Below, in pieces: positions 15,907 to 18,886 of a stretch of 63,041 bases of DNA. The notes under the pieces are model-generated. The model had not been told where the DNA came from. It did no database searches and saw nothing but the letters and a program-made list of their open reading frames with translations. A program made the translations under genes and the position numbers. The stretch is from Oscillospiraceae bacterium. GTDB taxonomy: Bacteria > Bacillota > Clostridia > Oscillospirales > Oscillospiraceae. Positions within the stretch are counted from its first letter, which is position 1; every line of letters starts with the position of its first letter. Where the stretch lies: assembly GCA_017621795.1 (NCBI GenBank), contig JAGASJ010000012.1, positions 1-63,041 on the forward strand, written 5' to 3'.

Positions 15907-15998
15907 GTTTGAATTGCCCCAGTTTGTGCTGTCCGCACAAACTGGGGCAGTTCAAACCCGTCCCCTACAAAAAACGGGACGGGAAGCCCGTCCCCTAC
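15907..15998. repeat. Long inverted repeat plus direct repeats of CCCGTCCCCTAC
   Basis: Bases 15907-15929 pair with 15935-15957: 23 positions, of which 22 are Watson-Crick and one is a G-T wobble, around a five-base loop. The 12-base word CCCGTCCCCTAC follows at 15957-15968 and again at 15987-15998, with its partner GGGACGGG at 15976-15983 between them, so either copy can form a hairpin. No coding frame is evident. It resembles repetitive intergenic elements of gut Firmicutes. Confidence 0.7.
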
Positions 15999-16150
15999 GC
16001 AGAAAACCGCAAAGGATGGGGATGGAGCGATGTTCAGAAAGGTAGAATTTTGAATGCGAAAACAGACCGCATTCTTTCGCGAAAATGGTGCAAAAGGATG
16101 CGGTCCGTTTATTATAAGGTGGCTGCCAATGGCTGAAAAAACTGGCAGGA

Positions 16151-16501
16151 TTATTTGTTGTTCTTAGCGGTTTTAATGGAGGCGATTAAAAGAATACGAA
16201 TTGTACTGCAAGTCTTGTCCAATGCTTTATACATAGGTTGATCAATATATCCTGTTTTTAAAAGCATTTCAAGCCATTTCCCTGTTTCGCTCGCCTCTTT
16301 TAAGGCTATTTCAAGTTTAGCAATGAAATCTGCTCGGCTATGACCATATTTACTTTCCGCAATATTAGCGCAAATGCTGGTCGCACTTCTTCCAATTTGA
16401 TTGGAAATAATTGTTTCGCGCTTGCTGTGCAGTTCTTTTACCAAAGCAAGGATATCCACAGATAGCTGCATAGAAAGTGTTCCAAGCTTATCTTCCTTCA
16501 T
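16151..16501 (-). CDS. Four-helix-bundle protein (S23/Avd-like, TIGR02436 type)
   Basis: The 116-residue, mostly helical protein carries the family pattern of 23S-rRNA intervening-sequence and Avd-like proteins: QLSVDILALVKEL, SNQIGRSATSICANIAESKYG, FIAKLEIALKEASETGKWLEML and a last helix with STIRILLIASIKT. Avd relatives form pentameric barrels that bind nucleic acid and assist reverse transcriptases in diversity-generating retroelements. No reverse transcriptase or variable repeat is seen here. The start at 16501 follows AGAGGTGA; an ATG 17 codons upstream would run into the first hairpin of the array at 16535. The gene sits directly downstream, on the minus strand, of that eight-hairpin array. 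Confidence 0.85.
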   Translation of the reverse strand: MKEDKLGTLSMQLSVDILALVKELHSKRETIISNQIGRSATSICANIAESKYGHSRADFIAKLEIALKEASETGKWLEMLLKTGYIDQPMYKALDKTCSTIRILLIASIKTAKNNK

Positions 16502-16534
16502 TAAAATCACCTCTGTGCCGATATTAGCATAAAT

Positions 16535-16713
16535 TTGCGTAAAGCGCAACATCGTTTACACCGCAAGGTGTAACATCGTTGATGCGAAGCATTATATCGT
16601 TTTTGACAAAGTCAAAACATCGTTTTGTGTCCGCTTTCGCGGAATGATGTTATCCTTCGAATAAATGATGTTGACCGTAAACGTTCAAACGATGTTGTGT
16701 CCTTGCGGACACA
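16535..16713. repeat. Eight-hairpin array with ACATCGTT linkers in two convergent halves
   Basis: Eight short hairpins occur in a row at 16535-16549, 16557-16572, 16582-16592, 16602-16616, 16630-16643, 16650-16664, 16671-16688 and 16696-16713. The stems differ in sequence but keep pairing. Linkers 1, 2 and 4 are ACATCGTT and linker 3 is ATATCGTT. On the right side the linkers are the reverse complement (AATGATGT, AATGATGT, AACGATGT). Loops such as GCAA fall on the plus strand in the left half, and GAAA or GCAA on the minus strand in the right half. The array is thus two oppositely oriented tandem sets meeting at the centre. It lies immediately 5' of the four-helix-bundle gene. Confidence 0.85.
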
Positions 16714-16718
16714 AACAC

Positions 16719-16751
16719 AAAAAAATTCCAAGTCTTACGACTTGGATTTTT
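16719..16751 (-). terminator. Terminator of tRNA-Thr
   Basis: A seven-base-pair stem (16728-16734 with 16739-16745) and TTAC loop is followed on the minus strand by a run of T. It begins directly after the encoded CCA end. Confidence 0.85.
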
Positions 16752-16827
<76 letters not shown>

Positions 16828-16944: not shown

Positions 16945-16973
16945 TTGCTTTTTTCATTCATATATGTTATGCT
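16945..16973 (+). promoter_or_regulatory. Promoter of the L,D-transpeptidase gene
   Basis: TTGCTT (16945-16950) and TATGCT (16968-16973) are 17 bases apart and 30 bases before the GTG start. Confidence 0.6.
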
Positions 16974-17002
16974 ATTTTATATTTTGTAAAGAGGTGACCA
17001 TT

Positions 17003-18886
17003 GTGCGTAAAAGCCTGATTATACTGCTTTGCATTTTGCTTGGCCTGCTGGCCGTCGGCTGCAACAGCAAGGGCAGCGATACACCCCAAACCACTGCGAT
17101 CCCCACGACCGAACCGACCACTATACCTGATACAACACAGGCACCTACGACCCCTCCCGGCACCATTCCTGCCGGCACTACGTTGGCCGGTGTACAGCTG
17201 GACGGTATGACCGCCGAGGAAGCTTTGGATGCTGTGAAGGCAGCTATGGAAAGCTACGCCATCCGGGTGTATGCGCTGGATAGCTATGTGGACATTCCTG
17301 CCGCTTCCCTTTCTGTAACCTTAAATGAGGAACAGCTTTTTACCTATCTTTCGGCGCTGACAAACGGTGAGGCGCTTCCCGAAGTGCCCCTGGCGCAGTG
17401 CAATACCTCCGCTGTGAAGAAGCTCTTGGAAGAAGGCCTCAACCGCTCGCCAAAAAATCCCGTCGTAAAGTACAGCTCCGACAAGAAGCAATTTGTCGTT
17501 TCAGATGCTGTTCGTGGGGTCAAAATTGACGCCACCGGTGCAAATACCGCTTTGGAAAACCCCGTTTCTATGCTCCAAAGCACCGCCACCGTACAGGTAA
17601 GTGCCACCTACACCTACCCCCAATTCACCCCCGAAGAGCCCGGTATCGTTGCCGCCGCACAGGAGGCAAACAAGTATTTGACCCCCGAAATTACCCTGAA
17701 GTTTATGCGCGCCACGGTGAAACTCTCCCCTGCCGAGCTTTCCAAATTTGTAAAGATCGGTGAGGATTACGCCGTCAGTGTGGACGAAGAAGCCATCTCT
17801 GAGTATGTACGCAACGCCACCTCCAAATACTCCGGCAAGAGAATGAAGGGACAATTCGTCACCACCTACGGCACCACCCTTTCCGGCTCCCGCTATGAGG
17901 TGGATTACTACGGCTCAGACCTGGATTCTGCCGCCCTGAAGGCAGAGCTTATAGACCGTGTAACCAACCTGCGCTCCGGTACATACGCCGCGGTTTATGA
18001 CGAAGAGGCCGATCCCCTGCCCTTTGGCGGAAATTACGTAGAGATCAATTTGACCAGCCAATGCCTGTGGGTCTACAGAGACGGCGTGGCGGTGACCCAG
18101 ACGGATATCGTCTCCGGCAGTGTTGCCGCCTTCTGTCACACTGATCCCGGCGTGTTTAAGATCTTCGGAAAGGTGCGCAAATGCTACCTGACCGGTCCTA
18201 CCTGGAGCAGCTACGTGGAATACTGGGTCCCCTTTAACGGCGGCGAGGGTATTCACGATGCGTCCTGGAGAGAGGATGATGAATTTGGCGGGGAGACTTA
18301 TCTGTATGGGGGCTCTCACGGCTGTGTCAACATCCCACCTGCAAATATGCCTGCCATCTACGACAATGTGTCCGTCGGTACGGCGGTGATCGTATACGGC
18401 GGCTGTTATTCCATCTCGCCTCTGCAACAGGTGATCACCGGAACAGACAGCTACTCCTGCACTACCGCGGACGACCCCTTTAAGCTGGATGTGACCATCA
18501 AGTACGATTACGGCGATCCGCTGGTTTACACCTCCTCCAATACCGATGTTGTTACAGTGGACGAAAACGGTAATGTGACCATTGTGGGCGCCGGTGACGC
18601 GGAAATTACCGTGCTTTCTCCCAAGTGTGACTTACTTTTGGAGTCCTCCTTCATCGTGACCATCCACGTGGAGGATGCAGAGGATGTGACCGAGCCGGAA
18701 ACCACCGTACCGGAGACGACTGTGCCGGAAACCACCGTACCGGAGACGACCGTACCGGAGACCACTGTACCGGAGACCACTGTACCGGAGACCACTGTAC
18801 CGGAGACCACTGTACCGGAGACCACTGTACCGGAGACCACTGTGCCGGAGACGACCGTGCCGGAAACGACCGTGCCGGAAACTTAA
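17003..18886 (+). CDS. L,D-transpeptidase (YkuD) lipoprotein with Thr/Pro-rich tail
   Basis: The protein has 627 residues. The GTG start follows AGAGGTGA; the N terminus is a lipoprotein signal with lipobox LAVG-Cys20. A Thr/Pro linker (about 26-55) leads to a PG_binding_4-like region, then the YkuD domain with GGSHGCVNIPP, Cys441 being the catalytic nucleophile. Such enzymes make 3-3 or lipoprotein links in peptidoglycan outside the membrane. A Big2-like Ig domain (about 492-557) follows. The end is a tandem VPETT tail of about 12 units, likely a flexible wall-spanning spacer. No LPXTG motif is present. The longer frame from 16964 lacks a ribosome site. Confidence 0.92.
   Translation: MRKSLIILLCILLGLLAVGCNSKGSDTPQTTAIPTTEPTTIPDTTQAPTTPPGTIPAGTTLAGVQLDGMTAEEALDAVKAAMESYAIRVYALDSYVDIPAASLSVTLNEEQLFTYLSALTNGEALPEVPLAQCNTSAVKKLLEEGLNRSPKNPVVKYSSDKKQFVVSDAVRGVKIDATGANTALENPVSMLQSTATVQVSATYTYPQFTPEEPGIVAAAQEANKYLTPEITLKFMRATVKLSPAELSKFVKIGEDYAVSVDEEAISEYVRNATSKYSGKRMKGQFVTTYGTTLSGSRYEVDYYGSDLDSAALKAELIDRVTNLRSGTYAAVYDEEADPLPFGGNYVEINLTSQCLWVYRDGVAVTQTDIVSGSVAAFCHTDPGVFKIFGKVRKCYLTGPTWSSYVEYWVPFNGGEGIHDASWREDDEFGGETYLYGGSHGCVNIPPANMPAIYDNVSVGTAVIVYGGCYSISPLQQVITGTDSYSCTTADDPFKLDVTIKYDYGDPLVYTSSNTDVVTVDENGNVTIVGAGDAEITVLSPKCDLLLESSFIVTIHVEDAEDVTEPETTVPETTVPETTVPETTVPETTVPETTVPETTVPETTVPETTVPETTVPETTVPETTVPET
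18691..18884 (+). repeat. 15-base coding tandem repeat (VPETT units)
   Basis: Twelve degenerate 15-base units encode PETTV. Six consecutive copies are identical (GTACCGGAGACCACT), pointing to recent expansion. The outer copies differ at synonymous positions. Confidence 0.95.

Follow-up and report, generated by a model that had tools for sequence, protein, structure and literature searches.

REP sequences are thought to be moved in trans by RAYT proteins, which are transposases of the Y1 type. These REP/BIME elements consist of convergent hairpin units with a short constant tag, occur in gene-less copies and take their place behind transcription units. Integron gene cassettes, in turn, bring together single exchangeable passengers, hairpin sites and tandem units. 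S23/IVP proteins belong to the intervening sequences of 23S rRNA, and Avd is a protein of DGRs. Gut-1 RNA (Rfam RF01706) is classed, in the portion of the source used here, as a non-coding RNA known only from human gut environmental sequence (PMC2864571). Non-CRISPR repeat arrays linked to genes have also been described and, in the portion of Altae-Tran et al. 2023 used here (PMC10910872), carry hypervariable spacers and are accompanied by proteins other than the one considered below.

We analysed a 63,041-nt stretch of DNA (the window) from an Oscillospiraceae bacterium (contig JAGASJ010000012.1, assembly GCA_017621795.1), in which an array of eight hairpins and seven linkers (four forward, three reversed) lies between the terminator of a tRNA-Thr and an intact TIGR02436 gene (Table 1). 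On the gene strand the order is tRNA-Thr, terminator, array and gene, with the array starting right behind the terminator, and the unit sits between the tRNA-Thr and a ferritin-like gene. Judging from sequence comparisons, this locus probably represents a single copy of a family of mobile elements that carry passengers, in which the protein would recognize the hairpin-linker units.

Table 1. Features of the array locus; positions are those of the window
Feature	Position	Strand	Details
Four-helix-bundle (S23/IVP-type, TIGR02436) gene	16151..16501	-	about 116 aa from the ATG at 16501, presumed start; ends in TAA
Presumed promoter of the TIGR02436 gene	16521..16549	-	TTGCGC ... TAATAT, as read from the sequence; abuts the last linker
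Second half-array	16535..16624	-	hairpins 16602-16616, 16581-16593, 16557-16572, 16535-16549; linkers on the gene strand, reversed: AACGATGT, one AACGATAT; limits by eye
First half-array	16624..16715	-	hairpins 16695-16714, 16671-16688, 16651-16663, 16631-16642; linkers on the gene strand: ACATCGTT, ACATCATT, ACATCATT; limits by eye
Linker	16549, 16573, 16617	+	ACATCGTT
Linker, variant	16594	+	ATATCGTT
Linker, reverse complement	16643, 16664	+	AATGATGT
Linker, reverse complement	16688	+	AACGATGT
11-nt end-to-centre inverted repeat	16624-16634 / 16705-16715		TTTGTGTCCGC; bounds the first half-array
Intrinsic terminator hairpin and T-tract behind tRNA-Thr	16721..16752	-	14-nt inverted repeat, 93% complementary, 4 nt between arms
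tRNA-Thr (GGT)	16752..16827	-	ARAGORN; Rfam tRNA 74.1 bits

Hairpins of differing sequence occupy all linker intervals and both ends of the array; that at 16671-16688 contains an internal mismatch, and the gene-proximal one overlaps the presumed promoter. An array detector requiring at least three forward and at least three reversed 7-mers (one mismatch allowed) with hairpins between them gave this array a score of 7, matched by 0 of 2000 dinucleotide shuffles, with thresholds that were set after the array had been seen; two stricter earlier detectors, calling for exact linkers and uninterrupted stems, respectively, had scored the window 0. Across the rest of the window, none of 1030 tiles (515 places, both strands) scored at all with the detector. 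The description in the initial annotation, eight hairpins with one conserved 8-base linker that is reversed in the other half and a loop type that switches strand at the array centre, is thus confirmed. The tRNA-Thr and its terminator directly upstream on the gene strand and the 11-nt inverted repeat are additional to it.

The window protein matches TIGR02436 with an E value of 4.1e-28 (97.8 bits; curated cut-off 24) and is hence a member of this family, in agreement with the earlier assignment of the adjoining gene to an S23/Avd-like four-helix-bundle group. An AlphaFold2 model (pLDDT 94) contains four helices. Foldseek with this model returned 2rld as the best hit (TM 0.86-0.90), followed by 2gsc (TM 0.80-0.84), while DGR Avd chains were weaker (TM 0.53-0.75, E 0.2 or worse); a PDB sequence search with the window protein returned 2rld and 2gsc too. 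Both are solved S23-type members with five chains in each, which we take to be pentamers. With the window protein as query, relatives turned up in 2 records among 50,697 from phages and in 28 among 72,556 from plasmids.

Neither of the two enzymes whose profiles were searched (RVT_1 and Y1) is supported as a mover of the unit. The initial annotation had linked the protein to reverse transcriptases; this link found no support, as RVT_1 is absent from two genomes with four and seven gene matches (G027 and G038, respectively), and the window's genome holds a single partial RVT_1 match, on contig C23 and not beside the gene (all genomes being drafts). The Y1 transposase profile PF01797 had 0 matches in the window's genome, which is 89% complete, and was present in 17 of 40 genomes searched. 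A reverse transcriptase or Y1 transposase as the mover is therefore unsupported by its presence in copy-rich genomes, and, with RVT_1 and Y1 as the profiles searched, no nuclease or recombinase was found.

Compared with the systems introduced above, the unit shares with REP/BIME elements the convergent palindromic units, the constant tag, many copies per genome, the existence of copies that lack the gene and a position behind transcription units; REP/RAYT is the nearest working analogy. In contrast to REP/RAYT, and to IS200/IS605 elements with their Y1 HUH transposase, the window's genome lacks a Y1 match; a four-helix-bundle protein is found instead, and the stems vary from unit to unit. With integron cassettes the unit has in common single exchangeable passengers of similar kinds, hairpin sites and tandem arrangement; unlike them, it carries its own protein gene and a long array. 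The window protein shares family and fold with the S23/IVP proteins, but 23S rRNA intervening sequences sit inside the 23S rRNA gene, whereas the window unit does not. Its fold resembles that of Avd, yet no reverse transcriptase of the kind expected in a DGR neighbours the gene. A half-array shares hairpins and linker with Gut-1 in one linker class, but, unlike Rfam's Gut-1, it is here part of a convergent array associated with a gene and with tRNAs. None of the known families tested agrees with the unit in all defining features, and we therefore regard it as a new kind of unit, though not yet as a new mechanism. None of the papers listed in the literature searches describes such a unit, as judged from titles and abstract openings, with most subscription journals and bioRxiv preprints outside this scope.

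The array and the gene recur together. In the window's genome TIGR02436 had 10 matches, including two fragments of a single broken copy, and several loci of this genome show the same design with other linkers (AATGATG, ATGAAAT, GCGATAT, AGTTATA). The family was found in 24 of 40 genomes in a relatives search and in 82 of 121 in a genus search, the window's own included. A scan of named genomes gave at least 546 relatives, mostly titled Clostridia, Oscillospiraceae or Ruminococcus MAGs and many from ruminant guts; named relatives of the host bacterium also come mostly from animal guts. We compared 141 loci, comprising the window, the rest of its genome, relatives and 80 named loci (the best 80 of at least 546). 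Of these 141 loci, 81 scored as having a convergent hairpin array on the upstream side of the gene, against 2 of 1410 shuffled controls; since the named loci were picked by similarity to array-type proteins, this and other fractions of the set are not population estimates. The counts were made with a detector variant with wider hairpin segments: 53 loci scored in the original setting, and with the variant 69 for the first upstream stretch and 81 once the stretch was shifted to correct for gene starts placed too far upstream. Array and gene thus constitute a recurring unit, as had been proposed. The initial annotation had named wide occurrence of the array without the gene, or of the gene without the array, as evidence against its reading, and this is seen in part: arrays without the gene are widespread (see below), and 60 of 141 gene loci lack a detected array. 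Some of these are detector misses with arrays visible by eye (for example L021 and L061), others belong to separate protein clades with simple tandem repeats.

Among the latter, two separate clades (L023, L024, L026, L027 and L040; L048, L054, L056 and L065), mostly behind tRNAs, have pyrimidine/purine tandem repeats in place of hairpins. A further group, consisting of a clade (L011, L012, L014, L016, L017, L018, L037 and L063) and L039, lies away from tRNA 3' ends, its genes being flanked by simple tandem repeats such as GGAATTA, which are reversed on the other side at L037, L039 and L063. At L036 and L043, part of an array can be discerned by eye on the far side of the gene as well, and L029 (identical to L292), L050 and L294 have two tandem arrays behind a tRNA.

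Linker and protein agree. In a tree built from 133 of the 141 proteins, the other 8 being too short (among them that of L068, with the AGTTATA type), the seven linker classes require 9 changes, the minimum possible being 6. When unlabelled rows were treated as an eighth group, 30 changes were needed, compared to 70.6 for shuffled labels, none of 200 shuffles being as low. Starred branches of the tree hold 9 of 9 TGAAA rows (plus one unlabelled), 27 of 27 TGATG rows (plus 16 unlabelled), 4 of 5 TGATA rows and 6 of the 7 rows of the window's inverted CATC class (plus five unlabelled), and 23 of 26 TGAAG rows share one branch with a support of 90. Outside neat clades remain CGATA (3 rows), the AGTTATA/AGCTAAA type (2 rows), L043, L055, L059, L111 and L112. 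Because the proteins of the window's genome alone fall in different clades, the linker is carried by element lineages and not by host lineages. Linker class follows protein clade, with several lineages in one genome, although co-inheritance alone, in the place of recognition, would also produce such agreement.

Half-arrays with one type of linker correspond to a known Rfam family, Gut-1, whose matches often lack the gene. The 77-nt model of Gut-1 comprises three hairpins joined by GUGAAAU, and thus corresponds to half of one linker class. At its curated threshold it recognizes 7 of 20 fetched loci, where half-arrays match, on opposite strands for the two halves. The window array gives no match up to E 10, against a cut-off of 50 bits, and is thus not a member. 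Elsewhere in the window's genome there are 33 Gut-1 matches, 14 of them over the cut-off; an E. coli control genome gave one sub-threshold match. Gut-1 arrays occur in 67 of 121 genus genomes and in 49 of 291 class genomes. They co-occur with the gene by genome: 61 of the 67 genomes that have Gut-1 also have the gene, compared to 21 of the 54 that lack Gut-1 (n = 121: both 61, array only 6, gene only 21, neither 33; p 8e-10). Their numbers correlate as well (rho 0.65), a value to which the completeness of draft genomes may contribute. Of 22 Gut-1-like places in the window's genome, 20 have no TIGR02436 gene directly behind them, and we infer that the gene-less arrays are non-autonomous derivatives.

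With respect to host genes, the unit is found right after intrinsic terminators, often of tRNAs. A same-strand tRNA lies just upstream at 81 of 141 loci, or at 73 of the 117 for which 400 nt or more of upstream sequence was available. Array and tRNA are found together at 52 loci, covering 15 isotypes; the 29 arrays without a tRNA in this position lack one partly for want of upstream DNA. In 49 of these 52 cases, 16-70 nt separate the tRNA end from the first linker, a distance that roughly corresponds to one terminator; in the other three it is 194-222 nt. In the window's class, read by eye at the window locus, L101, L103 and L284, the shared sequence begins after the T-tract (TGTGTTTGTGTCCGC) at different tRNAs whose terminator stems differ; the 5' edge rests on this reading, an ungapped profile anchored on the first linker showing no sharp edge of homology. 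The gene-less arrays of the window's genome also mostly start, by eye, behind a hairpin resembling a terminator, whether or not a tRNA is present: at the 22 Gut-1-like places (30 of the 33 matches had loci), a tRNA on the right strand lies upstream at 10, within 60 nt at 9. Three gene-less copies of one subfamily were seen by eye inside the loops of three different host terminators at unrelated loci.

Moreover, the same tRNA holds different elements in different species. At the tRNA-Cys 3' site, 28 readable flanks from 28 genomes contain either no element or one of differing types: a hairpin array at L255, L270, L280 and L284 (detector) and at L279 (by eye), the pyrimidine-repeat type at L260, L262, L263, L271 and L278 (by eye), and another element at others. 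The terminators themselves differ, the median palindrome being 17 bp at 88 tRNA flanks with an array and 12 bp at 133 without (p 1.8e-7), or 14 bp for the 96 array-less flanks that have a hairpin of 8 or more. A TTGTCTA-like terminator loop is found at 23 of 52 array loci, and at 27 of 76 tRNA flanks with a detected array compared to 9 of 146 without; as it is absent from the window's class, it was not counted as a part of the element.

As separate observations, at L068, L243, L244 and L245 in the window's genome the terminator palindrome is prolonged in the direction of a copy of the tRNA 3' end, inverted and immediately preceding the array, or reaches into this copy, a pattern resembling hairpin-primed copying of the strand itself. 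Other small repeats behind terminators, seen by eye at L074, L075, L076, L082, L090 and L095 (tRNA-Thr) and at L261, L276 and L277 (tRNA-Cys), consist of inverted and direct copies of the tRNA 3' part around a hairpin, with no gene seen.

The longer terminator palindromes, the perfect palindromes and the fact that most arrays have no gene would suit passive, REP-like 3' extragenic palindromes that spread through replication slippage and gene conversion behind tRNA terminators, with the gene as a hitch-hiker. We consider this quite unlikely, given that linker class and protein clade agree even between hosts from different families and that Gut-1 arrays track the gene in both presence and number.

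Many units carry a further gene. Of the 80 array loci at which the stop of the TIGR02436 gene could be read, 35 have ATGA or GTGA; 23 of the 35 show an overlapping passenger ORF of at least 40 aa, where 3.6 were expected (0 of 20,000 simulations). In four classes, ungapped identity between loci drops from 0.42-0.51 in the final 15 nt of the gene to 0.24-0.32 by 15 nt past the stop. Array and non-array loci together hold 30 passengers of at least 60 aa with such a stop; of 28 scanned, 8 exceed a Pfam cut-off (two GNAT proteins, a methyltransferase, a NUDIX protein, a nucleotidyltransferase, an AAA domain of kinase type, a WapI-like immunity protein and DUF5381), the remainder comprising two sub-cut-off matches and 18 with none. 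Related genes carry different passengers, and related passengers are found across linker classes, such as the methyltransferase of L064, L045, L165 and L172 (27-49% identity). Behind one tRNA-Leu (L285), units of different linker class stand in tandem. A 52-nt 3' motif had 13 matches, 8 of them 222-621 nt behind the gene on its strand and one upstream; the other 4 belong to loci that the script left unplaced, and three of these 4 stand just before an array terminator. A first pattern for this motif was discarded, as 4 of its 10 matches looked unrelated by eye. The window's copy, whose gene ends in TAA, has neither a passenger nor the 3' motif.

Small single exchangeable genes downstream, one with a WapI-like immunity domain, together with tRNA hotspots and several units per genome, bring to mind a retron-like defence or conflict island, in which a nucleic-acid-binding sensor and a hairpin array would be combined with an exchangeable effector. 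GNAT, NUDIX and methyltransferase passengers are of a general kind, though, and many arrays have neither gene, which makes such an island improbable to us.

The composition of the hairpins points to DNA. Array stems comprise 1312 Watson-Crick, 15 G-U, 7 A-C and 26 other pairs (G-U 15 of 1360), compared to 1475, 70, 1 and 1 in acceptor stems of tRNAs at the fetched loci (p 1.2e-4 by Fisher's test on G-U versus A-C), with all mismatch types in the arrays lowered by a hairpin finder that permits one mismatch per stem. Within the arrays, the ratio of 15 to 7 leans to G-U but is not significantly off 1:1 (p 0.13). In addition, GNA or GNNA loops closed by C-G are found, each half on its own strand, in at least 129 of 267 distinct hairpins, as counted from the 25 commonest loops listed per half. 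Loops of this type make unusually stable DNA mini-hairpins, according to the part of the source used here (PMC4686876). Because the stems are nearly all Watson-Crick paired and GNA/GNNA loops are numerous, we favour DNA over RNA. Before the linker edges were removed, G-U outnumbered A-C 39 to 5 in left halves, against 15 to 34 in right halves. We attribute this strand bias to a pair that is constant at the edge of the linker, and rejected it, since it is gone when the linkers are left out; the left/right difference is a strand-dependent signal that was explained away in this manner.

A structured non-coding RNA, produced by read-through of the tRNA terminator or from a promoter of its own and bound by the protein as DGR RNA is by Avd, has several points to commend it. 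Rfam models half-arrays as RNA, the S23-type fold resembles Avd, and RNAalifold yields a nested rod of paired linkers from which hairpins branch off. In the 18 (of 28) TGATG arrays aligned, two-sided changes affect 5 of 40 predicted pairs, and the covariation term of the rod is -0.09, which is next to no support. Linkers in nested positions show no higher complementarity than the remaining linker pairs (p 0.56, 20 of 81 arrays usable), and linker-to-linker pairing is thus unsupported. The scarcity of G-U in the stems, barely above A-C where the tRNA control has 70 to 1, Gut-1 matches on both strands of one array and the reversal of the array relative to the gene in the window's class also speak against an RNA. 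We therefore judge it unlikely, and the regulatory RNA contemplated in the initial annotation becomes doubtful, whereas its other suggestion, a small element, fits best. One long-range feature is nonetheless real: the end-to-centre inverted repeat of the arrays averages 10.4 nt, compared to 8.5 nt with the centre of another array of the same class and 6.1 nt with shuffled ends, and in 72 of 80 arrays it is longer than after the exchange of centres (p 1e-11).

For the mobile element that we favour, the complete unit, on the gene strand, would consist of a host terminator, a convergent DNA hairpin array with a lineage-specific linker, a promoter, the gene, often a passenger and sometimes the 3' motif of about 52 nt. 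We suppose that such units are mobile and that hairpin-plus-linker sites, in single-stranded or cruciform DNA, are bound by the protein, with a host nuclease or polymerase doing the cutting and joining. Gene-less arrays might be moved in trans, as proposed for REP with RAYT, and the last linker, beside the promoter, may let the protein repress itself. Among the loci compared, we saw no movement event, excision product or target duplication. The fullest version of this model, to which we hold tentatively and at somewhat less than even odds, is a new mobile gene cassette in which a four-helix-bundle pentamer would recognize its own DNA mini-hairpins and linker word and direct the insertion of hairpin-array units with exchangeable passengers at the 3' ends of intrinsic terminators behind tRNA genes, with tandem stacking and no encoded nuclease, Gut-1 being half of its recognition site. 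If true, it would provide a role for two orphans, namely S23/IVP four-helix-bundle proteins and the "RNA" Gut-1 from gut metagenomes, and a common route for gut Clostridia to swap small genes behind tRNA genes.

Three further features of the window were noted. Downstream of the gene, at 16060-16110, a hairpin is formed around GACCGCATCC; a similar hairpin lies behind tRNA-Thr in L087, L091 and L096, followed in L087 and L091 by an integrase-like reading frame (by eye). At 15907-15998, a 23-nt inverted repeat (96%, 15907-15957) adjoins a twice-repeated CCCGTCCCCTAC sequence. Lastly, the C-terminal end of the protein encoded by the ORF at 16964-18886 is a long run of ETTVP repeats.
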